Assembly: GCA_025934735.1 (NCBI GenBank)
Contig: JAICWP010000010.1
Coordinates: forward strand, 62,001-126,000
Direction: 5' to 3'
Length of the DNA: 64,000 nt
Source of the DNA: Terriglobales bacterium
GTDB taxonomy: Bacteria > Acidobacteriota > Terriglobia > Terriglobales > Acidobacteriaceae
Positions 43,721 to 62,343 of the stretch are shown here, piece after piece; the stretch's first letter is position 1, and every line of letters begins with the position of its first letter. The position numbers were made by a program, and so were the translations under genes. The notes under the pieces are model-generated. The model saw only the letters and a program-made list of their open reading frames with translations, did no database searches and was not told the origin of the DNA.

Positions 43721-44965
43721 CTAGTCCTTCAACTTGAAAGCTTCCGCGGGATCAAACCAGCACTGCTTCCAGAAAATGTTGTCGGTCATGTGGTGAGCGT
43801 TCCACTGCTGCAGGGTGGCCAGCGTTGCTGCCGCCATGCCGCCGTCTTCGGAATCGAACACGATGACCACTCCCGCCAGCGGCGGGCTGGAGTGGAGCAG
43901 TTCCGGAAACGCCTTGCGGAATACCGACTTGGCGTAACTGAACTTGTCGGCATCGCTGGCGCTGCTCGCCGGCTGCACCCAGATGACCTTCACCTGTTTT
44001 CCCTTCAACTCTTCCCAGTTGCCGGGGAAGGCCGCCGTTTCCTGCCGGGTTTGCCGGAAGGGAGTGGAGGGGGCCCGTTCGGCGGCTGTAACCGGTGCGG
44101 CGCCCTCGTAGGCGGCAGGAAGCTGCAACTCCGAACGGCGAATCCAGCCGCGCGACAGCCCAGAAACCTGCACGTGCACCCAGGGGCCGGCGGTGTCCAC
44201 GATCTGGAACTCGTCTTCCGCGTCGGCCAGGAACAAAACCTTTGCATTGTCGTCCGGCTGTTCCACAACTGGGATGCTGGGATTTTTTACGACCGCCAGA
44301 TTCTCGGGATGGGCCTGGTTGCGCAGGATCTGTTCCAGGTTTTTGGCTTCCCTGCTGAGCTGTTCAATACGCGCGTCGCCGTTCGACGGTTCCGCCGCCG
44401 AGGATTCCGTCCTCGAGGGCAGCGAGGGTGCGGCGGCGAAGCGGGGAAGCGCTGCCACGGGCGGCCCGCGTTTAATATACGCTGGAGCCGAGGCTTCCGG
44501 AACGGTCGCAGTTGCGGTCGGTTTCGATGCGGGGACTGCCGGCGGTTCGGCTGCGCTGGCCGTGGCGCCCAGCGTATCCTGCAACCGGTCCAGCAGGTCG
44601 GCCTCGAGCCGGCCATTCGACGCCAGCACCCGGTAGCCGGACTGCGAAGGGCTCGGGTCGGCGTACCAGGCCGTGATCCGCGCTCCCACTCGCACCGTGC
44701 AGGAGTCAGCACCCGCGCACGTCAGCTGCAGCGAGTACTGGTAAAAGGGGCGCTGATATCGTTCCAGCGACTTCTCCGCCACAAATCCATCCAGAATGGG
44801 CAACCGCCCGCCGCTGTAGGCTCCCAGATGGCGCAGCGCTTCTTCCAACTCGGCTTTGGAATGAGGGAAGGTGCGTTGCAGCGGAGTTTGTGCCGCGGCC
44901 AGGGGCACACCCAAGCTCAATAGCAGCGCAATCACCAGCAGCCAGCGGACACGATTTCTATGCAT
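43721..44965 (-). CDS. Secreted SH3-domain protein A
   Basis: ATG at 44965 overlaps the stop of the upstream gene by one base; a GTG lies one codon earlier. The product is 414 residues with a signal peptide ending in PLAAAQ. A first beta-rich domain has Cys residues in QLTCAGADSCTVRVG. A low-complexity Pro/Ala/Ser linker and a coiled region follow, then an SH3-like fold (KVLFLADAEDEFQIVDTAGPWVHVQVSGLSRGWIRRSEL). A C-terminal conserved domain ends with HMTDNIFWKQCWFDPAEAF. Cell-envelope binding is likely; the exact job is unknown. Confidence 0.7.
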   Translation of the reverse strand: MHRNRVRWLLVIALLLSLGVPLAAAQTPLQRTFPHSKAELEEALRHLGAYSGGRLPILDGFVAEKSLERYQRPFYQYSLQLTCAGADSCTVRVGARITAWYADPSPSQSGYRVLASNGRLEADLLDRLQDTLGATASAAEPPAVPASKPTATATVPEASAPAYIKRGPPVAALPRFAAAPSLPSRTESSAAEPSNGDARIEQLSREAKNLEQILRNQAHPENLAVVKNPSIPVVEQPDDNAKVLFLADAEDEFQIVDTAGPWVHVQVSGLSRGWIRRSELQLPAAYEGAAPVTAAERAPSTPFRQTRQETAAFPGNWEELKGKQVKVIWVQPASSASDADKFSYAKSVFRKAFPELLHSSPPLAGVVIVFDSEDGGMAAATLATLQQWNAHHMTDNIFWKQCWFDPAEAFKLKD

Positions 44966-45858
44966 CACGGCAGCGGCTCCAATTGGCTGTGGTGCACCCA
45001 GCCATGATGCCCGTTATCGGTCTCAATGCCGTACCAGTAGGGGGTTACGATCAGCAGCAGCACCTCGGCGTTGGCGGGCAGCTTCTCCACCGTGGTGGCG
45101 CTTTGGAAGGGCGCCGACTTTAGCTGGGCGCCGTCCGCCTTGACGCGCCGTTCCACCTGGTGGCGGAGACTGCTGACCCGCTGTTCCAGTTCCTGCTCGG
45201 CGGAAACCGCACCCGTGGCGGTGCTTACCGGCGTCGCCTCCCCGTACTCCTGCCGGCCGGAGGCGGACGAACTGCTGCGGGACGAAGACTCGTTGCCTTG
45301 GGGCTGGCGGCGGAGAGACTGCAGTTGCCGTATTTGCTGCTGCACGGCGCCGTATTCCGCCGATTCCACCCCGCCTTCTGACCAATGCACGCCGTGCCGC
45401 GCGTCTACAAAAACCGCGTCAATGCGAACATCCGTCTGGGTGGGATTTACTCCGTGCACCACATAACGCACGGTGATGGTGCCAATGTCGCCAGTCTCCG
45501 CGAAGTAGCGCGGCGCCAGCACGTTGTCGTCCACTTTGTAGAACACCTTGCCCGGGCCATCCCACTTGCCAAAGAATCGCGAAGCCTCGGCCGGGTGAGC
45601 GCCTACTAGAATTTTTTCTTTTTCGTAGGAGTAGGTTCCGTAAAGGATGGGATCCTGGCTTACCGCCTGGACAGCCTGGACGACGTCAGCTTCGGGAGCG
45701 TCAATCTGCAATTCCAGGGTGTGCGGCGGATGCGCTGCGCTGGGCAAAGCCCAGGCGCCCAAAGGCAGAAATATCAGCAGCAGCCAGCAGGCGAGCGCTA
45801 AGGGCGACGCGAATCCCTGGGCGGCAGACTTGGCCGCCCGCCATCCGAAGGTGGGCAT
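44965..45858 (-). CDS. Secreted SH3-domain protein B
   Basis: The ATG at 45858 gives 297 residues; the frame stays open to 46110. A signal peptide (LALACWLLLIFLPLGAWALPSA) is followed by a beta-rich domain (residues 50-150), a coiled and Ser/Arg-rich linker, and a short SH3-like segment, LLLIVTPYWYGIETDNGHHGWVHHSQLEPLP. It is related in layout to protein A, to which it is translationally coupled. The three-gene unit with ctaB suggests a link to oxidase assembly or the envelope. Confidence 0.68.
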   Translation of the reverse strand: MPTFGWRAAKSAAQGFASPLALACWLLLIFLPLGAWALPSAAHPPHTLELQIDAPEADVVQAVQAVSQDPILYGTYSYEKEKILVGAHPAEASRFFGKWDGPGKVFYKVDDNVLAPRYFAETGDIGTITVRYVVHGVNPTQTDVRIDAVFVDARHGVHWSEGGVESAEYGAVQQQIRQLQSLRRQPQGNESSSRSSSSASGRQEYGEATPVSTATGAVSAEQELEQRVSSLRHQVERRVKADGAQLKSAPFQSATTVEKLPANAEVLLLIVTPYWYGIETDNGHHGWVHHSQLEPLP

Positions 45859-46237
45859 GAGTGACGGAACGCCCGCGTGGAGCGTGTCCGAGGTTTGTAA
45901 TTGGCCCCAACCCTGACTGTCAAGGTGAAACTGGCGGCGCCCGTCGGCAGCTCGTGCCCGCGGTGCAGAACTCCTCACGTAGCCGCGCTTTCCCGCCCAT
46001 GTCCAAACCTTAGACAAATAGTGTTGGGTCAAAATCATGTCCCTGACGCAAAGAATGCCGCCCAATATATCGCATCGGGACGCAAAGCCCAAAAGTTTTT
46101 CTTGACTCACATCCTAGTGGCATGGTACTTACTCCAAACCTTTGTGTGGTCCGACAGTACAACGGCTCTGTTGGTCGCGGGCACTGTCGGAAGTTGGGGT
46201 CATAGCAAATTGTTGACTTATCTCAGGAGGACGTTGA
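45859..46237. other. Divergent promoter region between the ctaB unit and the oxidase operon
   Basis: These 379 bases hold no convincing gene. AT-richer stretches occur around 46000-46130 (for example ttgggtcaaaatcatg and caaaagtttttcttgactc), where promoters for both divergent units would be expected. TTGACT at about 46100 could be a -35, but no good -10 follows. AGGAGG lies just before the porin-cytochrome start. Confidence 0.35.
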
Positions 46238-47563
46238 ATGCCCTCTTTCGCGCGAGGCAGTATTGCCGCTGCGCTGTTTGCTGTGTGTATAGTGCTGGGA
46301 TGCGCGCCAAGCTCGTTTGCCATCCCCGCGTTCGCCCGCAAATACGGGCTTCCCTGCTCGGCCTGCCATGAGGCATGGCCCAAGCTGAATGTATTCGGCC
46401 AGACTTTCAAGGACAACGGCTATCAACTGATGAACGACCGGGATTCGCCCATCTGGCAGAACCCCTCGTATTGGCCTGTGGCCTTCCGCAACACACCGAA
46501 CTGGCACCGGGAGAGTGTGAACCGTGTGGCGGTGGACGTCCCCGCCGGCCTGGCGGAGCAAAAGATCATTACTCATGGCTTCGACCTCTCCGGCATGGAC
46601 GTTCTCAGTGGTGGCACCCTCTACAACAACATCTCCTTCCTTTTGGTTCCTTCTATGGAAAACACGGGAGAGTTCGGGCTGGAGTCGGCCTGGGTGCGTT
46701 TTGACAACCTGCTCAAGAGCCCATGGGTGAATTTCAAGTTTGGCAAGTTCGAACTGGATAACGTCATCTCCGAAAAACGCATCATGAACTTGTCGAATCT
46801 TGGGGGAGCGTACCAGATCTACCATTTCATTCCCGCTGGCGACAGCAATGCTTTCGGGCAGTTGGGAGACAACCAGTTGGGCATGGAATGGATGGGGCAC
46901 TCGAAGAATGACCGCAGCCGTTTGTCGGCGGCACTGCTGAGCTCCAACGATGGGTCGGTGAATCTGCCCAACGCCAATTCCTACGCCGGTTTCTTTACCG
47001 CCAGCCAGGCATTCGATACCGGCAAGCTGGGAGTGGATCGATTCGGCGCCTACGCTATGTTTGGACAAGCACCAACCTTCACCTTGAACCAGCTGGGCAA
47101 TCCGTTTCTCGCGGTGGGCAACAAAAACTTCTCCCGCGAGGGCGCGTTCGGCCTGTTCTACCTGAAGAAACTCGACTTTTCGCTGTTCTTCCAGCATGGC
47201 TCCGACAACCCGTATCTAGGGCTCAGCCTGGCTTCCAACCAGCCCTTGCCCGCGGGTGCTCAGTCGCCCACCTGGAACGGCGGCTTTGTAGAGACCCACT
47301 ACACCGTGAACCCGCAACTGATCTTTATCCAGCGCGACGAATTCATACGCATGTCCAAGCAAGCCTTGCCGACCCTGCCTTCCAGCTTGGGCGACGTTGA
47401 TGCGTACACCTTCTCGTTCCGCTGGTATCCCATTATGTTCAGCCGGGCCGGATTCGCGATCGAGCCGGAATACTCGCTGATGCGGCAGCAAGGCATGGCG
47501 CCGGTCACCGGCACCAGCCTATCCAGTAGCAGTGCATTCATTGGATTCGACTTCGATTTCTAA
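46238..47563 (+). CDS. Cyc2-like outer-membrane monoheme cytochrome-porin
   Basis: A 441-residue protein with a signal peptide ending in SSFA. It continues as IPAFARKYGLPCSACHEAWPKL, with one heme site (Cys40, Cys43, His44), then NVFGQTFKDNGY, the pattern at the N-terminus of Cyc2 iron oxidases. The rest is beta-strand-rich with many aromatic residues and ends in GFDFDF; a terminal Phe is typical of outer-membrane barrels. Cyc2 draws electrons from Fe(II) through the barrel into the periplasm. Here it heads an operon with a diheme cytochrome, a cupredoxin and an aa3 oxidase. Other monoheme porins exist, so iron oxidation is an inference. Confidence 0.78.
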   Translation: MPSFARGSIAAALFAVCIVLGCAPSSFAIPAFARKYGLPCSACHEAWPKLNVFGQTFKDNGYQLMNDRDSPIWQNPSYWPVAFRNTPNWHRESVNRVAVDVPAGLAEQKIITHGFDLSGMDVLSGGTLYNNISFLLVPSMENTGEFGLESAWVRFDNLLKSPWVNFKFGKFELDNVISEKRIMNLSNLGGAYQIYHFIPAGDSNAFGQLGDNQLGMEWMGHSKNDRSRLSAALLSSNDGSVNLPNANSYAGFFTASQAFDTGKLGVDRFGAYAMFGQAPTFTLNQLGNPFLAVGNKNFSREGAFGLFYLKKLDFSLFFQHGSDNPYLGLSLASNQPLPAGAQSPTWNGGFVETHYTVNPQLIFIQRDEFIRMSKQALPTLPSSLGDVDAYTFSFRWYPIMFSRAGFAIEPEYSLMRQQGMAPVTGTSLSSSSAFIGFDFDF

Positions 47564-47574
47564 AGAGGCATCGG

Positions 47575-48447
47575 ATGCGCAAAAGATCAATTACTTGGTC
47601 GTTGTTGCTGTCAGCTGCCGTTGTATTCGCCTTCTCTGCCGCTTGCTGGGCTCAGGTCACGCAGTACGACGAAGAACAGCGCATGAATATGGAGAGCCAT
47701 ATCGGCAAGCTCACAGGTCACGCCACCGCCGGGGAGCCTCTCTATCGCCGCTTCTGCATCGGCTGCCACGGACCGATCGGCGATGGCGAGGGAGAGAACG
47801 CGCAGTGGATTGATCCCAAGCCGCGCAATTTCACCTTGGGCATCTTCAAGTGCCGTTCCACTCCCACCGGCACCCTGCCCACCGACGAAGACCTGTACGA
47901 CACCATCGGGCGGGGACTGGTCAACTCCAACATGCCGCGCTGGTTTCCCCTCTCTGACCAGGACCGCGCGGACCTGATTGCCTACGTCAAACATTTTTCC
48001 CCGCGCTTCGCCAAGGAAAAACCGGGCTCAGTCCTGCAGATTCCACCCGAGCCGCCGGTCACCGAGGAGCGCGTCAAAGCCGGCCAGGAGGTGTTCCGCC
48101 ACACGGAATGCTGGAAGTGTCACGGCGTGACCGGGAGGGCCAATGGTCCTTCCGCGGACACTCTGACGGACGACTTCAACCGTCCCATCAAGCCGTTCAA
48201 TTTTCACGACGGCACTCGCTTCAAGTGCGGCGAAACCGATCGTGACCTGTACCGGATCTTCATGACCGGCTTGGACAGCACCCCTATGCCTTCTTTTGCC
48301 GATAACCTCAAGCCGGAAGAGGCTTGGGACTTGGTTATGTACCTGCGCAGTTTGCAGCCCATGAACACTCCGGAAAAGGCGATTGCAAAAAAACTAGGAT
48401 TGAAGCCGATCAACCCCAATGCGGCGGCTCAGCCCCAAACCAAGTAA
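47575..48447 (+). CDS. Diheme periplasmic cytochrome c
   Basis: A 290-residue protein with a signal peptide (SLLLSAAVVFAFSAACWAQ). Two class I cytochrome c domains carry CIGCH (61-65) and CWKCH (179-183), with distal Met candidates in NSNMPRWFPL and STPMPSFADNL. Linker and tail are Pro-rich. In position and heme number it matches Cyc1, the diheme cytochrome that links Cyc2 to the oxidase in the Acidithiobacillus rus operon. It starts 12 nt after the porin stop. Confidence 0.9.
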   Translation: MRKRSITWSLLLSAAVVFAFSAACWAQVTQYDEEQRMNMESHIGKLTGHATAGEPLYRRFCIGCHGPIGDGEGENAQWIDPKPRNFTLGIFKCRSTPTGTLPTDEDLYDTIGRGLVNSNMPRWFPLSDQDRADLIAYVKHFSPRFAKEKPGSVLQIPPEPPVTEERVKAGQEVFRHTECWKCHGVTGRANGPSADTLTDDFNRPIKPFNFHDGTRFKCGETDRDLYRIFMTGLDSTPMPSFADNLKPEEAWDLVMYLRSLQPMNTPEKAIAKKLGLKPINPNAAAQPQTK

Positions 48448-48472
48448 GCAACCAGTCAGGAGAGAACATTCC

Positions 48473-49216
48473 ATGAAAACTGTGTACAAACCCGCAGCGA
48501 TTTTGGCCGTTCTGGTCGTGGTCGCGTTGGGACTGTTGTCCACGGGTCGGCATGTGAGTGCCGCGTCGGAAGGCAAGGTGACCGGCAGTATCAAGCTGGA
48601 GGGAACTGCGCCGCACATGCGCGCCATTGACATGTCCAAAGATCCAACTTGTTCGAAGCAGCACTCCACTCCGGTGCACCTGGAAAACGTCGTGGTGGGA
48701 TCCGGCGGAAGCTTAGCCAATGTGGTGGTTTACATTTCCCAGGGTCTGCCTGCTTCCGCGGCTGCTGCCGTGCCCTCCAAGCCGATCGAGTGGGATCAGA
48801 AGGGTTGCATGTACCAGCCCCATGTGGCCGGCATGGATGTAGGCCAGCAGTTGAAGGTGATTAACAGCGACCCTACCACTCACAACATCCATCCCATGCC
48901 CCAGCCGGGCGGCGGCAACATCGGCTGGAACAAATCGCAGCCCCAGGGTTCTCCGCCGTTCACCACTAGCTGGAAAGCGGAAGAGGTAGCTATCCCCGTG
49001 AAGTGCAACATCCATCCATGGATGCACGGTTACATGGTGGTGGTTAAGGGACCGTATGGGGTGAGCGACGAGAGCGGCTCGTTCTCCCTCGACAACGTTC
49101 CTCCCGGCAGCTACACCCTGACCGCCTGGCACGAGACCTATGGCACGCAAACCCAGAAGGTGACGGTCACAGCCGGCAAACCGGCCACGGTTAATTTCAC
49201 CTTCAAGGCGAAGTAA
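48473..49216 (+). CDS. Secreted blue-copper (cupredoxin) protein with C-terminal beta domain
   Basis: ATG at 48473 gives 247 residues with a signal peptide (LAVLVVVALGLLSTGRHVSA). The type 1 copper ligands are His137 in TTHNIHP, and Cys178, His181 and Met184 in VKCNIHPWM. The C-terminal beta-rich part (about 195-247, SGSFSLDNVPPGSYTLTAW) resembles a carboxypeptidase-regulatory-like domain. It is a candidate one-electron carrier between cytochromes and the oxidase, occupying the role that rusticyanin plays in the rus operon. An earlier in-frame ATG at 48419 overlaps the cytochrome and is unlikely. Confidence 0.85.
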   Translation: MKTVYKPAAILAVLVVVALGLLSTGRHVSAASEGKVTGSIKLEGTAPHMRAIDMSKDPTCSKQHSTPVHLENVVVGSGGSLANVVVYISQGLPASAAAAVPSKPIEWDQKGCMYQPHVAGMDVGQQLKVINSDPTTHNIHPMPQPGGGNIGWNKSQPQGSPPFTTSWKAEEVAIPVKCNIHPWMHGYMVVVKGPYGVSDESGSFSLDNVPPGSYTLTAWHETYGTQTQKVTVTAGKPATVNFTFKAK

Positions 49217-49290
49217 CCATCGCTACGGGGGCCCGGAGCGGCCCCCAATTCACCAGGTCAGGCCGGCACCCGCCGGCAGAGGCAGGCACT

Positions 49291-50094
49291 ATGGGCAAGA
49301 TTCTCGCGGTAACCATTATCCTGATTGCCATTCTTTCGGCGGTTCCCATTGTCATGCACACCTGGAACCCGCCCGCCGACGTCTCCACCCATGGTCACCT
49401 CATTGACGAGCAAATGTCTGAAACCATGGCGGAGGCGGGCATTGCCTTCCTCGCCGGCCAAATTCTGCTGGCTTTCTTCATCTGGAAATTTTCCAACGTG
49501 AAGCCCGGCGCCAGAATCAAGAACTTCCCCGGCGGCGCCATGGGTCTGGTGCTGGCCGCGTTTTTGCTCGTGGGCACGGAGGTGCTCGCCCTGGGAGTCT
49601 TCGGCGTCAAAGCCTGGTCGCAGGTGTACTTCACGCCCCCCGCGGCTGATGCCATGCCCGTCCAGGTGCAGGCGGGGCAATTTGCTTTTTACTTCCGCTA
49701 TCCCGGCGCGGATGGAAAGTTCGGTCCCCTCCATCCTGAACTGGTCAACGAAGGCACCCAGAACTTGTTCGGCCTGGATCCGGATCACGACCCCGCTTCC
49801 AAGGACGACATCGTGACCGCCGAGATGGCCATTCCCGTCAACAAGGAAGTTCATCTCCTCATGCACAGCAAAGATGTTGGGCACTCGTTTTATGTCCCGG
49901 CATTGCGCGTGCAGCAGGATTTCGTTCCGGGATTGGATGTGTCGCTGCATTTCACCGCCACCAAGGTGGGCAAATACGAGATTGTCTGTACCCAGCTCTG
50001 CGGCCTGGGACACTACAACATGAAAGCGTATCTAGAGGTAATGTCGCAGCAAGATTTCGACAGCTGGTTGAAGCAGCAGGCGGCGAACCAGTAA
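49291..50094 (+). CDS. coxB: Cytochrome c oxidase subunit II
   Basis: A 267-residue protein with two N-terminal membrane helices and a periplasmic CuA domain. Ligands are His198 in KDVGHSFYVP and Cys233, Cys237, His241 and Met244 in CTQLCGLGHYNM. The usual Glu between the two Cys is a Gln here. There is no fused cytochrome c domain, so electrons must come from a separate carrier, probably the cytochrome or cupredoxin upstream. Gene order coxB-coxA is standard. Confidence 0.93.
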   Translation: MGKILAVTIILIAILSAVPIVMHTWNPPADVSTHGHLIDEQMSETMAEAGIAFLAGQILLAFFIWKFSNVKPGARIKNFPGGAMGLVLAAFLLVGTEVLALGVFGVKAWSQVYFTPPAADAMPVQVQAGQFAFYFRYPGADGKFGPLHPELVNEGTQNLFGLDPDHDPASKDDIVTAEMAIPVNKEVHLLMHSKDVGHSFYVPALRVQQDFVPGLDVSLHFTATKVGKYEIVCTQLCGLGHYNMKAYLEVMSQQDFDSWLKQQAANQ

Positions 50095-50145
50095 GCCGGG
50101 CCCGGCGCAGCCGCCGGCAGAAAAGATCTCTGTTGAGGTGACCCT

Positions 50146-51933
50146 ATGCACGACACGTCAGCGCATGCCGTACATCAGCACGCTGCTCCCACAAGTTTTA
50201 TTCGCAAGTACGTCTTCAGCCTCGATCACAAGGTCATCGGCAAGCAGTATTACGGACTGGCCCTGCTCGCGGTTCTCACCGGCATGGTTCTTTCCTGGCT
50301 TATGCGCCTCCACCTGGGCTGGACCGACCTGAAGATTCCCGGCTTGCACCTGCTCTCCGCCTCCGGGGCCCCGGGCGACGTGATGACGCCGGAGTATTAC
50401 CTCCAATTGATGACCATGCACGGCACCATCATGGTCTTCTTCGTGCTCACCACGGCTCCTTTCGCCGCCTTCGGCAATTACTTCCTGCCCATCCAGGTGG
50501 GCGCCGAGGACATGCCTTTCCCCCGCTTCAACATGATGTCGTTCTGGGTGACCTTCACCGCTTTCCTGGTTTTGATTTCCTCTTTCTTCTTTGGCGACGG
50601 GCCGACCCTTGCCGGCTGGACACAGTACGCGCCCTTGAGTGCGGTGGGCGCGGTTGCCGGCCCTGGACAAGGCACGGGTGAAGTGCTGTGGGCGAGTTCC
50701 ATCGCCATCTTCTGCGTCGGTCAGTTGCTAGGCTCCTTGAACTTCATCACCACCACGCTGGACATGCGTACCAAGGGTATGAGCCTGTGGCGGCTTCCCC
50801 TCACCGCCTGGGGATGGTTCATCACCTCGGTGATGGGCCTTACCGCTTTCGCTGTGTTGATGCCCGCCTGCATCCTGCTCATCCTTGACCACGTGGCCGG
50901 AACCAGCTTCTTCGTGGCCTCCAACCTGGTACTCAACGACCAGCTGCAGCCCCACTCCGGCGGGTCCACCCTGTTGTGGCAGCACTTGTTCTGGTTTTTC
51001 GGCCACCCCGAGGTTTACATCGCCATTGTGCCCGGCATGGGAGTCGTTTCCCACATTCTGGTCGCCAATATGCGCCGCCCGATGCTTAGCCATCGCGTGA
51101 TCGTCTACTCCATGGGCGCGCTCGCCGTGCTCAGCTACATGGTGTACGGGCACCACATGTTCGTCAGCGGCATGAATCCGTTCTCCTCCCTGGTGTTCTC
51201 CTTCCCCACGCTGGTCATCACCATTCCCTCCACCATCCTGGTGTTGATCTGGATTGGCAGTCTCTACGGCTCCAAGCTGCGCATTAACACCGCCTCGCTG
51301 TTCGCCCTGGGATTTATTTCCATGTTCATCAGCGGCGGGGTAAGCGGCTTCTTCCTGGCCCAGCCCTCCATCGACATCATGCTGCACGCCACCTACTTCG
51401 TGGTCGGACACTTCCACCTGGTCATGGCGGTCGCCGCCATCTTCGGCATCTTTGCCGGAACGTATTTCTGGTACCCCAAAGTCACCGGCCGGATGATGAA
51501 CGAGACGTTGGGCAAGATTCACTTCTGGCTCACCTTCGTGGGGGCGTACTGCATATTCATGCCCTTCCACTACCTGGGAATCGCGGGCAATGTGCGCCGC
51601 TACCAGGCGTTTGTGGATGACTACCTGGTGCGTTTGATTCCACTGCATCGCTTCATTACCGTCGCCGCTCTGTGCACAGGCGCTGTGCAGCTCATTTTCC
51701 TTTACAACCTGTTCTACAGCCGCTTCCGCGGCGAGGAAGCTCCGCTGAACCCCTGGCAGGCCACTTCGCTGGAGTGGAGCACACCCTCATCGCCGCCGCC
51801 CTTCGATAATTTCGGCGGACGGCACGTCGTCGTCTATCACGATCCCTATCAGTACGGCATTGAGGGCTCAACCGACGACTACGTCATGCAGGATTCGCCC
51901 GCACAAATTCAGTCTGTGCGGGACGAGAAGTAA
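50146..51933 (+). CDS. coxA: Cytochrome c oxidase subunit I (aa3-type)
   Basis: A 595-residue, 12-helix heme-copper oxidase core that reduces O2 to water and pumps protons. The active-site motif FGHPEVYIAIVPGMG holds the His-Tyr crosslink and the Glu of A1-type oxidases. GHHMFVSGM carries the CuB histidines, and HFHLVMAV the heme ligands near residue 420. The Tyr/Glu arrangement rules out cbb3. AGGTGACC precedes the ATG by 5 nt. Confidence 0.95.
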   Translation: MHDTSAHAVHQHAAPTSFIRKYVFSLDHKVIGKQYYGLALLAVLTGMVLSWLMRLHLGWTDLKIPGLHLLSASGAPGDVMTPEYYLQLMTMHGTIMVFFVLTTAPFAAFGNYFLPIQVGAEDMPFPRFNMMSFWVTFTAFLVLISSFFFGDGPTLAGWTQYAPLSAVGAVAGPGQGTGEVLWASSIAIFCVGQLLGSLNFITTTLDMRTKGMSLWRLPLTAWGWFITSVMGLTAFAVLMPACILLILDHVAGTSFFVASNLVLNDQLQPHSGGSTLLWQHLFWFFGHPEVYIAIVPGMGVVSHILVANMRRPMLSHRVIVYSMGALAVLSYMVYGHHMFVSGMNPFSSLVFSFPTLVITIPSTILVLIWIGSLYGSKLRINTASLFALGFISMFISGGVSGFFLAQPSIDIMLHATYFVVGHFHLVMAVAAIFGIFAGTYFWYPKVTGRMMNETLGKIHFWLTFVGAYCIFMPFHYLGIAGNVRRYQAFVDDYLVRLIPLHRFITVAALCTGAVQLIFLYNLFYSRFRGEEAPLNPWQATSLEWSTPSSPPPFDNFGGRHVVVYHDPYQYGIEGSTDDYVMQDSPAQIQSVRDEK

Positions 51934-51961
51934 GTAGGGACTAACCCTGGGAGTTGTAGAG

Positions 51962-52642
51962 ATGGCAACCACAGTTGATAAGCCGGTGGATCTGGAGCAG
52001 CGCGATGACTATCTGCGCCGCACTGCCCACTCCGGCAACGGCGGAGGCCGCGACCTCGTTCCCGCGGACGGCAGCCTGCGTGCTGTCCAGGACCACTCGC
52101 CCGCCGCCAGCACCGGCATCTGGGTAGGCCTCACCGCCATCTCCATGACCTTTGCCGCACTCACCAGCGCTCTGGTCGTGCGCAAGGGCGCCTCCACGGA
52201 TTGGCAGCACTTCACGCTGCCTTCCGTGCTCTATCTGGATACCTGCATCCTGCTGGGCAGCAGCGTGACTCTGGAGTTGTCGCGGCGGTACTTTGCCCGC
52301 TCCCTGGCCGGCCTGCGGGCCGGTTTGGCGGATTCGGCGCGCTGGCTCTATCTCACTCTGCTGATGGGCGTGGTTTTCGTCTCCGGCCAGTATGTTGCCT
52401 GGCTGCAGTTGCGCCACCAGGGACTGTATCTCTCCACCAATCCCAGCAGCTCGTTTTTTTACGTGCTCACCGCGGCCCACGCTCTCCACGTACTGGGCGG
52501 CCTGGGCGGACTAGTCCTGGTTACCTACAGGTTGAGCCGCTCCCGACTGCGGCGCAGCACCCTGGATATCGCTTCCCGCTACTGGCATTTCATGGATGTC
52601 CTTTGGATTTACCTGTTCTTGCTGCTGTGGTTCAAGATGTAG
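51962..52642 (+). CDS. coxC: Cytochrome c oxidase subunit III, copy 1
   Basis: A 226-residue membrane protein. After a polar N-terminal 50 residues, five helices are seen. AHALHVLGGLGGLVLVTY and SRYWHFMDVLWIYLFLLLWF match the family's conserved last two helices (WHFVD-type motif). It starts 28 nt after coxA. The extended, charged N-terminus distinguishes it from copy 2. Confidence 0.88.
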   Translation: MATTVDKPVDLEQRDDYLRRTAHSGNGGGRDLVPADGSLRAVQDHSPAASTGIWVGLTAISMTFAALTSALVVRKGASTDWQHFTLPSVLYLDTCILLGSSVTLELSRRYFARSLAGLRAGLADSARWLYLTLLMGVVFVSGQYVAWLQLRHQGLYLSTNPSSSFFYVLTAAHALHVLGGLGGLVLVTYRLSRSRLRRSTLDIASRYWHFMDVLWIYLFLLLWFKM

Positions 52643-52660
52643 TGCCGTTGGGAGGAATGG

Positions 52661-53287
52661 ATGAGTCAAGCTGACATGGCAATGCATCACCCCGGCGGTG
52701 TGATGACCGAGCCGGCCTTTGCTGTTCCCGCAAGAAAGATGGCGATCTGGCTGTTCATCATCGCCGACGCCGCCACCTTCGCCGCCTGCCTGGTGGCATA
52801 TGGGTTTCTGCGCAACGGCAGCCCCAGCTGGCCCACTCCCTTTAAGTTCTCCCCCACCGTGATCAACGCCATGGTGATGACTTTTATTCTCATCACCAGC
52901 AGCTTGACCATGCTCTTAGGGGTACGCGCCGGCAAGGCTGGCGACCGGGCTGCCGCCTTCCGCTTCACCGTGATCACCGCCGTGGCCGGCATTGTTTTTG
53001 CCTTGCTGCACCTGCGGGAGTGGATGGGCATGATTCATGAGGGCGTTACCCTTTTCCACAACCCCTGGGGCACCGCCCTGTTTGGCGCATCATTCTTCAG
53101 CATTACCGGCCTGCACCTCACCCACGTGGTGGGCGGAGTCGTGGCCCTGCTGGTGGTCGGCGGCCGCTATAAAGCCGGCCGCATGAATGCCGATCACCTG
53201 GAAGTTGTCGGCCTGTACTGGCACTTCGTGGACCTGGTTTGGATGTTCGTGGTTCCCTTTGTGTACTTGTTGAACGTTGCGCGCTGA
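52661..53287 (+). CDS. coxC: Cytochrome c oxidase subunit III, copy 2
   Basis: A 208-residue membrane protein in the same family as its neighbour: five to six helices, TGLHLTHVVGGVVALLVVGGRY and VVGLYWHFVDLVWMFVVPFVYLL at the end. The Met- and His-rich N-terminus (MSQADMAMHHPGGVMTEP) may bind copper. A GGAGG site lies just before the ATG. Two subunit III genes in tandem suggest either a duplicated subunit or two different III-like proteins in one complex. Confidence 0.9.
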   Translation: MSQADMAMHHPGGVMTEPAFAVPARKMAIWLFIIADAATFAACLVAYGFLRNGSPSWPTPFKFSPTVINAMVMTFILITSSLTMLLGVRAGKAGDRAAAFRFTVITAVAGIVFALLHLREWMGMIHEGVTLFHNPWGTALFGASFFSITGLHLTHVVGGVVALLVVGGRYKAGRMNADHLEVVGLYWHFVDLVWMFVVPFVYLLNVAR

Positions 53288-53310
53288 GATCAAGAGGGGA
53301 GAAGCGATCT

Positions 53311-53670
53311 ATGGTGGATGCGCCTGATGTCCTGCAGACTGAGCCGGCGGCACAGTACACCGATAGCCTGGGCAAATATATTGTGATTTACCTCTGCATC
53401 CTCGCTCTGGCGGGGGTGCAATTCGTCTTTGCCTATAGCGGCGTGCACGCTGGGGGAAGGTTCGCCCGCATGTTCCTGGTGGCCCTGGCCGAAGGCGGGC
53501 TCGCTCTTCTGTTCTTCATGCACCTATGGGCGGAGAAACGCGGATTTCTGCTGTTCGTTCTGGTTTTCACCGGATTTGTCCTGGCCGCCATGCAGTACGG
53601 CTGGACCGACAGCAACCGCATGGAGCGCGGGGTTCCCAACTCCCAGCCACAGATTGGCTCGGTTCGCTAG
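53311..53670 (+). CDS. coxD: Cytochrome c oxidase subunit IV (prokaryotic type)
   Basis: ATG at 53311 follows GAGGGGAG and gives 119 residues. Three hydrophobic helices (YIVIYLCILALAGVQFVFAY, FLVALAEGGLALLFFMHLWAE and LLFVLVFTGFVLAAMQYGW) fit the bacterial subunit IV family, with FMHLWAEK as the usual motif. It probably stabilises subunits I and III. Confidence 0.85.
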   Translation: MVDAPDVLQTEPAAQYTDSLGKYIVIYLCILALAGVQFVFAYSGVHAGGRFARMFLVALAEGGLALLFFMHLWAEKRGFLLFVLVFTGFVLAAMQYGWTDSNRMERGVPNSQPQIGSVR

Positions 53671-53682
53671 GTAACCCGGCAA

Positions 53683-53937
53683 ATGAATAGTCGGCGATTA
53701 ATACGGTGGCTCGGCCTTTCGCTTCTGGTGCTCAGTTCGGCGGTTCCGGCTTTGGCTCAGAGTTGCGCCCTTTGCTATACCCAGGCCGCGTCCTCCGGCA
53801 CGCGCATGATTCAAGCCTTGCAGGCTGGAATTCTAATTCTGGTCATTCCGCCCACTTTTGGATCCTTGGTGGTCATCGGCATCCTCTATCGTAAGCGCAA
53901 TCATTTTTACCAAGCGGATGCCAATAACGGCGCCTGA
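53683..53937 (+). CDS. Small exported/membrane protein at the end of the oxidase operon
   Basis: An 84-residue protein with a signal peptide ending in VPALAQ, followed by SCALCYTQAA and one transmembrane helix (AGILILVIPPTFGSLVVIGILYR). The CxxC pair just after the cleavage site could bind copper or form a disulfide, which fits an oxidase assembly role, though the family is not one I recognise. It starts 12 nt after coxD. Confidence 0.68.
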   Translation: MNSRRLIRWLGLSLLVLSSAVPALAQSCALCYTQAASSGTRMIQALQAGILILVIPPTFGSLVVIGILYRKRNHFYQADANNGA

Positions 53938-54125
53938 CCCAGCCCTTGAACAGAAACCTCCTTCCTTCCGAAGATGTCGCTGTCCGCCCGCCCGCACCGT
54001 CTGAGGTTTTTATAACGCTAAGCCCGGCCCACGCAGACTGGGCAGGGGGATAAGATTTTCTTTGCCCCTGAATCCGGCGCCGGGCGATACCATTTTCCCG
54101 GGCACAACCTACGAGGCTAGCGGTA

Positions 54126-55130
54126 TTGCGATCTGTGTTCATGAACGGTGTGGCGGTCCTTCTTCTGTTCGCTCTCTCCGGCGCAGCCCAGGAGCAAACT
54201 CCCCTTTGGGTGGTCAACCTGCATGGCAAGTTCGGCTATATCAACCGCCAGGGCCAAATGGTGATACCGGCGAATTTTGCCTTTGCCTGGCCTTTCAGCG
54301 AGGGGCTGGCCTCTGCTTGGATAGGCGATCAGCAGAGTTCCAAGGCCGGTTACATTGACCCAAGCGGAAAGCTGGTGATCGGCGCCCGCTTCGATGACGC
54401 CCGTGCCTTCCACGATGGCCTGGCAGCGGTCTCCATTGGCGGCCAGTGGAGCTTTATTGACAAGGTTGGAGCCCGGCTGACAACCGAAGATTACGAGGAC
54501 CTCCACGACTTCAGCCAGGACCGCGGTGCTTTCCGGCTAAAAATGAAATGGGGTTATCTCGACCCCCAGGGGCACACCGTTATTCCTGCTCAGTACAACC
54601 TGGCTGGTTCCTTCAGCCAGGGTCTGGCCTGGGTATTCCGCGGCAGCCATTGTGGCTTCATTGACCTCAAGGGTCACATCGTCATCCCCGTCACCTTCGA
54701 CCGCTGCTCCGATTTTTCCCAGGGGCTGGCGGCGGTCGAAATCGAGGAACACTGGGGCTATATCAACCCGGCCGGTAAGTTTCAGATTAGGCCGCGCTTT
54801 GTTTCGGCGCTCTCCTTCTCCGAAGGGCTCGCAGCGGTGGAGTTCCGGGGCGCATGGGGTTATATCAACCCCAGCGGGCGCTTTGCGGTTCGGCCCCAGT
54901 TTTTTAGCGTTAACGGGCGCCAGGCGGCCACCAGCTTCTCCCAGGGTAAGGCCTGCGTGAAGCTCCGGGACAGGTGGGGCTTTATTAACCAGCAGGGAAA
55001 AGTAGTGATACCGCCCAAATTTGTCCAAGGCGGCAAGTTCCAGGACGGGCTGGCGGACGTTTGCGATACCCCTTCCCATTGCGGCTACATTGATGGCAAC
55101 GGGCAGTACGTTTGGTCAGGCGACCGCTAG
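54126..55130 (+). CDS. Secreted WG-repeat protein
   Basis: The start is TTG at 54126 or ATG at 54141; the first gives 334 residues. A signal peptide ends in LSGAAQ. Eight or more WG-type repeats of about 40 residues follow, each ending with a pattern such as WGYINPAGKFQIRPRF, WGFINQQGKVVIPPKF or CGFIDLKGHIVIPVTF. WG repeats form beta-propeller-like binding domains with no known enzyme activity. It lies downstream of the oxidase operon on the same strand. Confidence 0.85.
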   Translation: MRSVFMNGVAVLLLFALSGAAQEQTPLWVVNLHGKFGYINRQGQMVIPANFAFAWPFSEGLASAWIGDQQSSKAGYIDPSGKLVIGARFDDARAFHDGLAAVSIGGQWSFIDKVGARLTTEDYEDLHDFSQDRGAFRLKMKWGYLDPQGHTVIPAQYNLAGSFSQGLAWVFRGSHCGFIDLKGHIVIPVTFDRCSDFSQGLAAVEIEEHWGYINPAGKFQIRPRFVSALSFSEGLAAVEFRGAWGYINPSGRFAVRPQFFSVNGRQAATSFSQGKACVKLRDRWGFINQQGKVVIPPKFVQGGKFQDGLADVCDTPSHCGYIDGNGQYVWSGDR

Positions 55131-55191
55131 CCGTCTGCCTGCCATTCCGGCCGCTTTTTTTTGGTGTATCCTCTGTTCGCCTCAGGGGTCT

Positions 55192-55416
55192 ATGCGGAGA
55201 AAGAGGCCCCGCATGACCTTCATGCATACCCCCGAGTTCCGCAGGCGTGAACAACTGCGCAGAAATCAGACCCACTGCCACGCCGGTCACCCCCTGACTC
55301 CGCACAACACCCGCGAGGAGGTCTGTACGCGCAATGGAAGGGAGTACACTCTCCGCATCTGCAAAGCCTGTGAGCGGCAAAGGCACAGGCAAAAGAAGAG
55401 AGCCTCAGGCCGATAA
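55192..55416 (+). CDS. Small zinc-finger-like basic protein
   Basis: ATG at 55192 gives 74 residues (a second ATG lies at 55213). The sequence is strongly basic and contains THCHAGHPLTPHNT followed, after a Cys-containing loop, by LRICKACERQR. The C-x-x-G-H ... C-x-x-C pattern matches small zinc-binding domains that often sit next to HNH nucleases or in phage proteins. No such neighbour is present here. Function unknown. Confidence 0.6.
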   Translation: MRRKRPRMTFMHTPEFRRREQLRRNQTHCHAGHPLTPHNTREEVCTRNGREYTLRICKACERQRHRQKKRASGR

Positions 55417-55443
55417 ACCGTTTTGACTCAAGGTCCGCCCCAT

Positions 55444-55459
55444 TGTGATGGCCATCACA
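55444..55459. promoter_or_regulatory. CRP/FNR-like palindrome upstream of the cupredoxin gene
   Basis: TGTGATGGCCATCACA is a perfect 16-bp palindrome of the CRP type (TGTGA-N6-TCACA). It lies about 115 nt before the cupredoxin ATG, consistent with an activator site for this gene. Confidence 0.6.
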
Positions 55460-55575
55460 TTAGCCCGTGATATAAGTCATATCCCCCTTGTGACGACTTT
55501 CCTATCCTGAACCTGCATTGAAAACCCCAAGCTTCAGCTCAGGAAAGGGCTGAAATTCAGGAAAGGTCAGAACTC

Positions 55576-56160
55576 ATGAAAAAGAATCTTCTCATTGCGG
55601 TTATCAGTTTCCTGGCTCTGAGCCTGGTGGCCAGCGCCGGCACCCTCAGCGGCAGTGTCAAGGGCGCCCAGGGACAATCGGTGGTTTATCTGGAACCGGT
55701 GCAGGCCGCCGCGCCCGCGCCCGCTCCGACCCAGGTGTACAAGATGGATCAGCGGGGCATGAAGTTCATCCCCAGCGTGCTGGTGGTTCCGGTGGGCGCT
55801 ACCGTGGAATTCGACAACGACGATGCCGGCGCCCACAACGTGCGCTGGGCTTCCATCGGCGGCCAGACCCGCTTCGGACACAACCTGGGCAACTTCGCCG
55901 CCGGGCAGAAGGGAACCTGGAAATTTGAGCACGCCGGCGTGGTGCCGCTGATGTGCACCATGCATCCCGATATGTCCGCTTACATCGTCGTGACCCCCAG
56001 CCCCTACTACGCGCAGACCGACCAGATCCTGGGCGATTTCTTCATCCAGAACGTCCCCGATGGCCAATACAAGGCCGTGGTGTGGCACAACGGCAAGACC
56101 ACCTCGCAGGTGGTTAAAGTCGCCGGCAACACCAAGGTGGATCTGGCGGCTGGCAAGTAG
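55576..56160 (+). CDS. Secreted cupredoxin (plastocyanin-like) protein 2
   Basis: A 194-residue exported protein with a signal peptide ending near LVASAG. Type 1 copper ligands are His87 in AHNVRW, and Cys127, His130 and Met133 in MCTMHPDM. An N-terminal beta segment and Ala/Pro linker precede the core. A C-terminal strand pair (PDGQYKAVVWHNGKTTSQVVKVAG) resembles the one in the first cupredoxin. It is a likely electron carrier in the periplasm. A strong terminator follows. Confidence 0.85.
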   Translation: MKKNLLIAVISFLALSLVASAGTLSGSVKGAQGQSVVYLEPVQAAAPAPAPTQVYKMDQRGMKFIPSVLVVPVGATVEFDNDDAGAHNVRWASIGGQTRFGHNLGNFAAGQKGTWKFEHAGVVPLMCTMHPDMSAYIVVTPSPYYAQTDQILGDFFIQNVPDGQYKAVVWHNGKTTSQVVKVAGNTKVDLAAGK

Positions 56161-56188
56161 AACCGGATTCCTCCTCCTGGTAAATGGC

Positions 56189-56222
56189 AAGGCGCGGACT
56201 GCAAACTCCGCGCCTTCTTTTT
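56189..56222 (+). terminator. Rho-independent terminator after cupredoxin 2
   Basis: A perfect 10-bp stem, aaggcgcgga / tccgcgcctt, with an 8-nt loop is followed by a T-rich tract (ctttttc). It starts 29 nt past the stop codon. Confidence 0.9.
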
Positions 56223-56261
56223 CCCCACAAACAAACGTGCAGCCTCCCCAACATGCGATGT

Positions 56262-56275
56262 GTGACCGAGGTCAC
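56262..56275. promoter_or_regulatory. CRP/FNR-like palindrome A upstream of the second cytochrome-porin
   Basis: GTGACCGAGGTCAC has 6-bp inverted arms and fits GTGA-N6-TCAC. It lies in the 303-nt gap before the porin-cytochrome gene. Confidence 0.5.
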
Positions 56276-56292
56276 CCCGCCGGGTGACGCCA

Positions 56293-56310
56293 TTGTGACC
56301 ACGATCACAA
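56293..56310. promoter_or_regulatory. CRP/FNR-like palindrome B upstream of the second cytochrome-porin
   Basis: TTGTGACCACGATCACAA has perfect 6-bp arms with a 6-nt spacer and is the closest match here to the CRP consensus. It lies 31 bp (centre to centre, about three helical turns) from site A. The remaining gap to 56525 has no gene but ends in AAGAGGAGGAG, a strong ribosome-binding site. Confidence 0.6.
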
Positions 56311-56525
56311 ACGGGTGTGACAAGAGTTACAGCGTTATGTACGTCGTGAAGCGACAATTCCCCCAACATCCGTACGCGGGGCGCGGGGCCTCGCTTCCGT
56401 CAATCCGGACTTGGGGTGACGTTCAGCAGTGTGCACGATTCACAGGTGAGGAGCGCGGCATGCGCCTGGCACATGATTCGCAGTCTTGGCATTTATCCGA
56501 TACCCCTCAAGAGGAGGAGAGGTCA

Positions 56526-57860
56526 ATGGGAAAGAGCATCTCGCTGTGGCTGTTTGTCCTGATCGTACTTTCTATCCTGGCGCCCCAGGCAGAGGCGGTA
56601 CCCAGTTATGCGCGCCAGACCGGCTTGTCCTGCAACGGCTGCCACTACACGCCCCCCGAACTGAATCCGGCGGGACGCCTGTTCAAACTCTACGGCTACA
56701 TTGACAAGATGAAGGACGGCGGAATCACCGCCGAGAGCAACAAGCGGGAAGCAGGCCTGGACCTGCTTCGCGTGCTGCCCCTCTCCGCCTGGCTGGAAGC
56801 TTCCTTCACCAACACCAAGACTCCTCAGCCTGGCACTCAGAACGGCAACGTGGAATTCCCCCAGGATATCTCTCTGTTTCTGGCCGGGGCCTGGTCCACC
56901 CACATCGGCAGTTTCCTGCAGGTCACCTACGACACGCAGGGCGACCATTTCAGCATGGATAACACCGACATCCGCTACGCTCGCATCAAGAAGCTGGCGG
57001 GCAAAGAGTGGGTCGTCGGCTTGACCCTCAACAACAATCCCACCGTGGAAGATCTGTGGAACTCCACGCCGGCCTGGGGATATCCCTTTATTGCCAGCGA
57101 CGTCGCGCCGGGTCCCACGGCCGCCCCCATCATTCAAGGCGCTCTGGGACAGGATGTGGGCGGATTGGGCGCCTACACCATGTGGGACCAGCATTTATAT
57201 TTCGCGGGAACCCTCTACCGTTCCAGCCACATCGGCACGCCCGAGCCAACTACCGGGCAGGACCTGGCGTTCAACATACGCGGCGTGGCCCCCTACTGGC
57301 GCCTAGCCTGGCAGCAAGATGGAATCAAGAATAATTTCGAAGTCGGCACGTATGGCATCCACATGAATTCCACTCCCGGCGCTATTACCGGCCTGGAAGA
57401 CACCTACACTGACTATGGGTTTGACTTCCAGTACGACCGCACGATCGGCAAGGACGTGTTGTCCTGGCGTGGTACCTACGTTCGGGAGAACTCAGCGTTA
57501 GCCGCCACCCTGGCTGCTGGCGCCGCCGCTGTCAATAATCATCATCTGGATTCGTTCAACACCAACGCCGAGTACCACTTCGGCAACCGTTATTCCGCAG
57601 CCCTCGGCTGGTTCACCACCTCGGGCACCACCGACCCCCTCTTGTTTACGCCGGCGCCCGTGACCGGCAGCGCCAACGGCAGCCCCAAGAGCCGTGGCTA
57701 CTCCCTTAATTTCTCGGTGTGGCCTATCCAGAATCTCGACCTCGGCCTGCAATACACCGGCTACACCAGCTTCAACGGTTTGGCCAATAACTATGACGCT
57801 GCCGGCCGCAACGCCAGCGGCAATAACACGGTTTACCTGCTGGCGCGTTTCATCTTCTAA
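56526..57860 (+). CDS. Cyc2-like outer-membrane monoheme cytochrome-porin 2
   Basis: ATG at 56526, behind GAGGAGGAGAGG, gives 444 residues. A signal peptide ends near PQAEA. VPSYARQTGLSCNGCHYTPPEL holds the single heme motif (Cys36, Cys39, His40), followed by NPAGRLFKLYGY, again the Cyc2-type N-terminus. The rest is strand-rich and ends in LLARFIF, with a C-terminal Phe. The frame is open upstream, but that part contains the palindromes and is not coding. Iron or other extracellular electron uptake is inferred. Confidence 0.78.
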   Translation: MGKSISLWLFVLIVLSILAPQAEAVPSYARQTGLSCNGCHYTPPELNPAGRLFKLYGYIDKMKDGGITAESNKREAGLDLLRVLPLSAWLEASFTNTKTPQPGTQNGNVEFPQDISLFLAGAWSTHIGSFLQVTYDTQGDHFSMDNTDIRYARIKKLAGKEWVVGLTLNNNPTVEDLWNSTPAWGYPFIASDVAPGPTAAPIIQGALGQDVGGLGAYTMWDQHLYFAGTLYRSSHIGTPEPTTGQDLAFNIRGVAPYWRLAWQQDGIKNNFEVGTYGIHMNSTPGAITGLEDTYTDYGFDFQYDRTIGKDVLSWRGTYVRENSALAATLAAGAAAVNNHHLDSFNTNAEYHFGNRYSAALGWFTTSGTTDPLLFTPAPVTGSANGSPKSRGYSLNFSVWPIQNLDLGLQYTGYTSFNGLANNYDAAGRNASGNNTVYLLARFIF

Positions 57861-57865
57861 TCCAC

Positions 57866-57899
57866 GGCGTAGCTGCGGAGGCCACTCGGTAGCTACGCC
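57866..57899 (+). terminator. Possible terminator hairpin after the second cytochrome-porin
   Basis: A 9-bp stem, ggcgtagct / agctacgcc, with a 16-nt loop begins 6 nt after the stop codon. Only a weak T-rich tail (attcctt) follows, so terminator function is uncertain. Confidence 0.4.
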
Positions 57900-58007
57900 A
57901 TTCCTTGTATGTGCACGGAACCGTGTGGGCACGGGGCTTTGCCCCAAGCAGGGCGAGTGCTCGCCTTCGGGTTTGCATCCTGAGCAGCCAAGGACCTGCT
58001 TTGTGAT

Positions 58008-60137: not shown

Positions 60138-60335
60138 CAGCTTCTCCTCATCAACGGGCCGCTGGTCGCGGCGCGAACCCCGCAGTGTACCCTAAGACGA
60201 AATTCCACCACACGGACGCAAACGAAAATCATTGTCGATTGATGATTTACGATTCTTGAAAAGCTCCAGGCTGAAACAAATCGGCAATCGAAAATCTTAA
60301 ATCTCCCTTGTGTCTCTTTGGTGAGGAGTGAGGTT

Positions 60336-60872
60336 TTAGACCTTCTCGGCCTTCTCATAGATGACCAGATCGCCCTGGCGGCGCAGGTCTTCGGGATGGT
60401 AGCGGGGAATAGGTAACTCGGTTTGCTTGAACTCTACCGGCGCGGCTTTCTTCTCCATCAGACCCAATGCCACGGCAACGCCGTAGATGATGGCCTCCGG
60501 CCGCGGCGGGCAGCCAAGGATGTAGTAATTCACCGGCACGACTTTCTCCACCGGCCCCAGCACAGAGTAGCTGTCGAACCACATGCCGCCGCCGCAGGCG
60601 CAGGACCCGATGGCAAACACCAGCTTGGGCGCGGGCATGGCCTCATACGCGGCCCGGAGGGCGCGGGCGGTCGCCCGCATGCCTGGACCCTGGCACAACA
60701 TAACATCGGCGTGGCGTGGCGAGCCCACCAGCCGGATGCCGAAGCGCTCCGCGTCATAATACGGCGTCAGCGCGTTCAGCACCTCGATGTCGCACCCGTT
60801 GCACCCGCCGCTATTGGCGTGGTACACCCACAGCGAACGGCCGAACATTTTCTGGCACAGCTCCTTCAGCAT
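60336..60872 (-). CDS. Group 4 [NiFe]-hydrogenase small subunit (HycG/HyfI-like)
   Basis: A 178-residue soluble iron-sulfur protein homologous to NuoB. Proximal-cluster ligands are Cys24 and Cys27 in SGGCNGCDIEVL, Cys91 in GSCACGGG and Cys121 in GCPPRPE. The SGGCNGCDIE form is typical of energy-converting hydrogenases rather than complex I. It is the last of four genes; its start is 6 nt after the stop of the ferredoxin gene. Confidence 0.88.
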   Translation of the reverse strand: MLKELCQKMFGRSLWVYHANSGGCNGCDIEVLNALTPYYDAERFGIRLVGSPRHADVMLCQGPGMRATARALRAAYEAMPAPKLVFAIGSCACGGGMWFDSYSVLGPVEKVVPVNYYILGCPPRPEAIIYGVAVALGLMEKKAAPVEFKQTELPIPRYHPEDLRRQGDLVIYEKAEKV

Positions 60873-60878
60873 GGCCGC

Positions 60879-61406: not shown

Positions 61407-61418
61407 AGCTTCATCTCC

Positions 61419-62339: not shown

Positions 62340-62343
62340 GCCG

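Follow-up and report, generated by a model that had tools for sequence, protein, structure and literature searches.

In Acidithiobacillus, the rus operon has the gene order cyc2-cyc1-cup-coxB-A-C-D, in which the copper gene is described as lying between cyc1 and coxB (PMC10654088). For Leptospirillum, the same account describes Cyc572 as feeding Cyc579, bc1 and a cbb3-type oxidase from unclustered genes and places it in a network cluster with homologues from Acidobacteria and Nitrospira (PMC10654088). Members of the wide Cyc2 family are characterized by a single CxxCH motif, AXPXFAR[Q/K][T/Y] upstream of it, PXL downstream and a length of at least 365 residues (PMC8406198), and Cyc2 or Cyc572 homologues in Acidobacteriota have already been published (PMC10367259, PMC10654088). 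Here, we analyzed a 64,000-nt stretch of a Terriglobales genome (4.94 Mb, 50 contigs, 99.8% complete), referred to as the window and corresponding to positions 62001-126000 of contig 17. At 46238-53937, it carries an operon for a monoheme cytochrome-porin, a diheme cytochrome c, a cupredoxin-type protein and an aa3-type cytochrome c oxidase. The original prediction of a rus-like layout holds: the layout is real, and the unit is larger than the nine genes first described. We consider it reasonably probable that this unit forms a separately assembled respiratory branch, through which electrons would reach O2 from a donor located at the outer membrane or beyond it. No report of this operon was found in the literature searched, mostly at less than full-text depth.

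Gene content of the operon

All nine plus-strand open reading frames (ORFs) are present and closely packed, with computed intergenic gaps of, in order, 11, 25, 74, 51, 28, 18, 29 and 12 bp, in agreement with the predicted run of consecutive genes separated by short gaps. For coxD, the ATG start at 53311 is likelier than a TTG at 53239, and the seventh gap then measures 23 bp. The operon opens with the porin of 441 amino acids (aa) (46238-47563), in which a Cyc2-like heme head (AIPAFARKY-CSACH-PKL) is joined to a different, predicted barrel. The diheme cytochrome c (290 aa, 47575-48447) has PF00034 and PF13442 domains and belongs to the family of Protein Data Bank (PDB) entry 6h5l, chain B; it is followed by the cupredoxin-type protein (48473-49216) and the oxidase genes. 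These encode CoxB (subunit II, 49291-50094; PF00116 over and TIGR02866 under the cut-off), CoxA (aa3-type subunit I, 595 aa, 50146-51933; PF00115 over the cut-off), two copies of CoxC (subunit III, 51962-52642 and 52661-53287; PF00510 with E values of 1e-11 and 2.7e-13) and CoxD (subunit IV, 53311-53670). The last conserved gene (53683-53937) encodes a small CxxC membrane protein of 84 residues that matches no Pfam or NCBIfam family over its cut-off and whose CxLCYTQAA motif is kept in a 13-row alignment.

The predicted two-heme cytochrome and oxidase subunits II, I, III and III were all recovered by Pfam, with two class I cytochrome c domains, CoxB and both CoxC copies over their cut-offs along with CoxA. 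Subunit IV was recovered less securely, in that PF03626 matches CoxD with an E value of 8.3e-6, which is below the cut-off of that family. CoxA scores 540.9 bits against NCBIfam TIGR02891 (E 2.8e-162; cut-off 670.75). Reading the CoxB sequence directly revealed CTQLCGLGHYNM, which we take to be the Cu-A motif. With a CoxA of the heme-copper family and a CoxB carrying Cu-A ligands, the enzyme has the features of an aa3-type oxidase.

The proposed type 1 copper protein stands on its motifs and not on a domain assignment: Pfam returned no cupredoxin match for the third gene and found CarboxypepD_reg alone, at the C terminus. The sequence itself contains HNIHP and KCNIHPWM (KCNxHPWM), which include the probable type 1 copper ligands, and both motifs are kept in a 15-row alignment. 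We therefore regard the protein as cupredoxin-type. The CxxCH motifs are likewise conserved among relatives of the operon.

Conservation of the unit among relatives

Porin orthologues were sought in 61 genomes, comprising the source genome, 36 others of the same family, 14 of the same order and 10 of the same class. At E ≤1.1e-100, they occur in 15 genomes, source included; in G013, the orthologue is divided between two reading frames. In many other genomes, the match to the porin is limited to the heme domain. The surroundings of the 14 orthologues outside the source genome were then compared. Twelve of the 14 loci retain all nine genes with order and direction unchanged; in one of these (L039), coxB is split between two frames. 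In the other two (L041 and L049), the contig ends inside the operon, with the genes up to that point as expected. Because porin homologues and the nine-gene order recur in other genomes, the gene row is more than chance.

Two minus-strand genes upstream belong to the same unit. They encode SH3-domain protein B (415 aa, 43721-44968) and SH3-domain protein A (44965-46110; 381 aa as listed, although the conserved part starts later), both with weak SH3_3 matches under the cut-off, and protein A has no PDB relative up to E 0.1. Homologues of the pair flank the operon, likewise in divergent orientation, in 12 of the 14 orthologue loci; in the two without them (L039 and L049), only about 0.8 kb of contig precedes the porin, which is too little to include them. 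As the pair accompanies the operon, the conserved unit consists of eleven genes rather than nine.

Further afield, ten of 396 genomes in a sample of the phylum match the porin profile at E ≤1e-30, four of which, source included, are of the same family. One genome, G334 (L119, C59, 8303-14456, minus strand), encodes homologues of the cupredoxin-type protein (35% identity), the porin (34%) and the diheme cytochrome (47%), and after these three genes come those for a COX1 subunit and for a FixO/CcoO-like protein that contains cytochrome c domains. This is the same input module placed on a cbb3-type terminal oxidase. Around the porin at four other loci (L121-L124), comparison with the operon revealed no further member of it. 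At two of these (L122 and L124), distant porins of the operon's barrel type adjoin ORFs with two CxxCH motifs, as judged by motif count only. In a sample of the phylum of Acidithiobacillus, 86 of 398 genomes match the porin profile at E 1e-5; among the matches listed, none extends beyond position 177 of the 446 model positions, and most end before position 80. A plasmid search with the porin gave three records, covering at most 37% of the query.

Heme head and barrel of the porin

The porin has one CxxCH motif (CSACH, residue 40), preceded by AIPAFARKY at residue 28 and continuing as CSACHEAWPKL. Together with its length of 441 aa, it thus contains the motif set of the wide Cyc2 family (Keffer 2021), and for this reason it may be counted as a Cluster 3-type Cyc2. 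The authors of the family description call the function of Cluster 3 the most uncertain (PMC8406198), and Cluster 3 genes are also treated as uncertain in function elsewhere (PMC13264449). The likeness to Cyc2 ends at the heme head. The porin aligns with Acidithiobacillus Cyc2 over 63 residues only, covering the signal peptide and heme head (37% identity, E 5e-10), and a profile-profile alignment is limited to 51 columns. It matches no Pfam or NCBIfam family at E 0.1, and neither the porin nor its family retrieved a PDB entry.

A full-length hhalign comparison of two mixed alignments gave 99.8% but was not used. We preferred comparisons of the barrels alone, with reversed controls, since the heme head could carry a full-length match. 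The barrel of the operon porin then matched Cyc2 with a probability of 1.2% (reversed control 0.5) and, with 0.1% (control 0.2), a proteobacterial group that also has the ARKY motif. Two other Acidobacteriota porin groups matched the operon porin at 99.7 and 99.3%, and a further proteobacterial group matched Cyc2 at 97.6%. Overall, four of 15 group pairs match (97.6-99.7%), and the other 11 stay below 10%. This pattern suggests a single heme head combined with three or more types of barrel. Because porins diverge fast, an undetected kinship between barrels is no proof of separate origin.

A tree of 106 porin rows, in which the two porins of the window fell on opposite sides, gave long-branch warnings, and we therefore relied on trees of 42 rows chosen from the 106, calculated for the full length and for the 45 heme columns, which are few; both agree with the larger tree. 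In the full-length tree, the Cyc2 rows from rus operons, Acidobacteriota and Proteobacteria lie on one side of a branch with 100/100 support. A clade of the operon porins with rus Cyc2 was rejected by the approximately unbiased (AU) test both at full length (p 1e-82) and on the heme columns (p 6.6e-5).

The specific link to rus Cyc2 that had been proposed for the porin is thus confined to the heme head, where the profiles agree; the barrels gave no such agreement, and the grouping in a tree, named in the original prediction as a refuting test, came out against it. The C-terminal Phe, which had been cited in favor of the link, is no evidence for Cyc2, as the rus-operon Cyc2 proteins compared end in Tyr.

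Assignment of the porin as a rus-type (Cluster 2) Cyc2 was rejected on these grounds, namely the rejected clade and a barrel kinship that is undetected at this sensitivity. Among loci from the phylum of Acidithiobacillus (L156-L182), 22 rows represent another monoheme porin group, exemplified by AIPVFARKYGMACSSCHTMFPKL, whose barrel has no detectable relation to Cyc2 or to the operon porin.

Comparison of the other parts with the rus operon

For reference, we used named Acidithiobacillus loci reached via rusticyanin and compared eight rus proteins. The order of gene kinds is the same in both systems, as predicted, with a second coxC added here, and the heme head, CoxA and CoxB are homologous. 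Otherwise, the parts differ. Rus Cyc1 and the diheme cytochrome share 23% identity (E 7e-6), AcoP gave no significant match to the operon cupredoxin (E 0.11), rus CoxC matched both CoxC copies with E values of 1.5 or worse, and the CoxB proteins share 28% identity over 94 residues (E 7e-14). Rusticyanin is missing among the 12 window genes compared, none of which matches Rus significantly, and, unlike the rus operon, the present unit has an extra CxxC gene and the SH3 pair. CoxA is 31-32% identical to rus CoxA but 59% identical to the subunit of an aa3 oxidase encoded immediately before the window and 36% to a third one, placing it nearer to the source genome's own paralogue. At the sensitivity used, these comparisons show the counterparts of Cyc1, Cup/AcoP and the Cox proteins to be non-orthologous to the rus parts. 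Together, the porin, Cyc1, cupredoxin and Cox comparisons suggest a parallel, independently assembled pathway, as had been proposed.

The closest structural relative of the diheme cytochrome is 6h5l chain B (E 6.5e-59 over 210 residues, 52-261), and no other PDB chain passes 1e-5. We take 6h5l to be the Kustc0457/Kustc0458 pair of Kuenenia. Kustc0457 is described as the redox partner of the HAO-like Kustc0458 (PMC12485887); in that system, the diheme cytochrome partners an HAO-like enzyme, whereas here its gene lies between those for the porin and the oxidase. The best NCBIfam match of the cytochrome is cytochrome579 (E 1e-14, 54.7 bits), for which the cut-off is 280. In a scan of four other cytochromes, cytochrome579 was the best model for one (L046), two favored another model and one had no cytochrome579 match at the threshold. 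An identity with Cyt579 is weakened by the sub-cut-off score, and 6h5l chain B fits much better.

The operon genes include no quinol:cytochrome c reductase. The second aa3 oxidase of the genome, located on contig 17 at 46001-64000 (L050) and overlapping the window start, also has two CoxC proteins but does have such a reductase beside it, as it lies behind a cytochrome b and a cytochrome with nine CxxCH motifs on the same strand. In the operon, the porin would thus replace the electron source.

A Cyc2 homologue and other genes near the operon

Located 2.6 kb after the operon, and outside the conserved unit, is a gene, absent from the original prediction, for a full-length Cyc2 homologue of 444 aa (56526-57860, plus strand), whose alignment with Acidithiobacillus Cyc2 spans 492 columns at 32% identity (E 4e-50). 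It falls on the Cyc2 side of the 100/100 branch with the other Cyc2 rows, and its product is, as classified from sequence, of the rus or Cluster 2 barrel type. On this evidence, the kinship to rus Cyc2 fails for the operon porin and holds for its neighbour. Relatives of the homologue at E ≤1e-15 occur in 20 of the 61 genomes, source included; fold prediction from a six-row alignment reached a pLDDT of 33.

The preceding gene (55576-56160, plus strand) encodes a second cupredoxin (PF00127, E 5.6e-6) that is also a neighbour outside the conserved unit. No orthologue of it was found beside the operon in the 14 loci, where the only matches were weak ones to the operon cupredoxin, and a similar cupredoxin adjoins the Cyc2 homologue in only some of the relatives' loci. 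Between the operon and this gene lies a WG-repeat protein with seven repeats (54138-55127, plus strand). Near the window end (60336-63963, minus strand), we observed a cluster resembling complex I or a membrane-bound hydrogenase, with 20 kDa, ferredoxin-type, NADHdh (NuoH-like) and fused 30/49 kDa subunits; by eye, its large subunit has CxxC pairs near both ends.

Discussion

In the route that we infer, including the outer-membrane location, the direction of electron flow and the donor, electrons would enter via the porin heme at the outer membrane and be carried onward by the diheme cytochrome c, the cupredoxin or both, presumably in the periplasm. They would then pass from Cu-A of CoxB to heme a/a3-CuB of CoxA, where O2 would be reduced with proton pumping. 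The SH3 proteins and the small CxxC protein probably have accessory functions or help in assembly. Such a branch would work like the Acidithiobacillus rus pathway but would have been put together separately, by combining another barrel bearing a Cyc2-type heme head with another diheme family, another cupredoxin and a local aa3 oxidase. It is supported by the close packing of the nine genes in one direction, by the conservation of their order and of the SH3 pair, each in 12 of the 14 orthologue loci, by the missing quinol:cytochrome c reductase, by the recurrence of the module before a cbb3-type oxidase and by the Cyc2-like heme motif and the conserved copper and CxxCH motifs.

Several observations weigh against this route. 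The porin is patchily distributed, with orthologues in 13 of the 36 same-family genomes and one of the 24 order or class relatives. The oxidase is not an obligatory partner: G133 (L125, same family) has the porin, diheme cytochrome, SH3 pair and cupredoxin in one direction with no oxidase within the 19.6 kb examined, and G228 (L120) has the porin and diheme cytochrome with no oxidase on a 9.2-kb contig, which ends 0.4 kb upstream. Besides the copy at L041, G008 contains a second one with cupredoxin, porin and diheme cytochrome (L052, G008:C219, 5358-7822), in which in-frame stops interrupt the porin; this copy may be decayed or reflect an assembly fault. The barrel, proposed as a 16-strand outer-membrane porin fused to the heme domain, is putative, too. 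Single-sequence AlphaFold2 prediction of the porin gave no usable fold (pLDDT 29), and Pfam porin matches in the family comprise BBP2 in one of 14 members (E 3.2e-5) and Porin_O_P in one of 17 (E 0.024). An amphipathic alternation score did not separate the operon porin, with eight peaks, from shuffles (6.4 ± 2.3). This score separates weakly even for the Cyc2 set (11 versus 6.1 ± 2.0, with shuffles reaching up to 12) and is not barrel-specific, as CoxB gave 9 versus 6.7 ± 1.9. Finally, RuBisCO was not found in the source genome, and Calvin-cycle growth on the donor is therefore not expected.

As the donor, Fe(II) is plausible in acidic soil and would be the likeliest single candidate, itself still doubtful; lacking a RuBisCO match, the organism could use it at most to supplement organic growth or to feed other carbon fixation, or it could be detoxifying Fe(II). 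A variant of the proposed branch, possible but tentative, has outside electrons coming from another donor, such as reduced humics or phenolics, Mn(II) or neighbouring cells. Two different porins close together suggest two donors, of which Fe(II) could be served by the Cyc2-type porin that lies 2.6 kb beyond the operon together with a cupredoxin of its own, and the uncertainty that its authors attach to Cluster 3 function agrees with this; the same authors, however, predict dissolved Fe(II) as the substrate of monoheme Cyc2 (PMC8406198).

Rather unlikely, though compatible with a branch fed from outside, is that the operon represents an Acidobacteriota form of the Leptospirillum Cyt572/Cyt579 route for Fe(II), which would fall within Cyc2 Cluster 3. 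The porin would then be Cyt572-like, with the diheme cytochrome in the place of Cyt579 and an aa3 oxidase, or a cbb3-type one in G334, at the end. Both systems would lead from a heme-porin to a periplasmic c-type cytochrome, and the clustering of Acidobacteria homologues with Cyc572, which feeds Cyc579, bc1 and cbb3 (PMC10654088), is in line with such a relationship, as are the cbb3-type version of the operon, the best NCBIfam match of the diheme cytochrome and the ARKY motif that the wide Cyc2 family permits (PMC8406198). Against it, the cytochrome579 score lies far under its cut-off and is surpassed by the fit to 6h5l chain B, three of the four other cytochromes either favor a different model or lack a match, and the Leptospirillum route is described as running through bc1 and cbb3 from unclustered genes (PMC10654088), whereas the genes here are clustered.

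We consider it unlikely that the locus encodes an ordinary alternative cytochrome c oxidase on the quinol branch, with the porin acting as a redox-sensing or heme-bearing transporter and no electrons drawn from outside: the oxidase-free loci of G133 and G228, the paralogy of CoxA to the genome's own aa3 enzyme (59%), the missing RuBisCO and the putative barrel would fit such an enzyme, but the joint occurrence of porin, diheme cytochrome, cupredoxin and oxidase in 12 of the 14 orthologue loci and the recurrence of the module before a cbb3-type oxidase would not.

Returning to a separately assembled branch from the outer membrane to O2, we put forward more tentatively, as a broader conclusion that may well not hold, that the rus architecture arose twice, in Acidobacteriota from non-orthologous parts around a shared, mobile heme head found on at least three unrelated barrels, and that it allows presumed heterotrophs to respire with extracellular electrons. 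Were this so, some of the Acidobacteriota, a soil phylum, would have a dedicated electron line from the outer membrane to O2, and evolution would have arrived at the rus layout on two occasions. The heme head would in that case serve as a small, portable module for electron entry, and marker searches based on the Cyc2 motif would lump together three or more kinds of porin.

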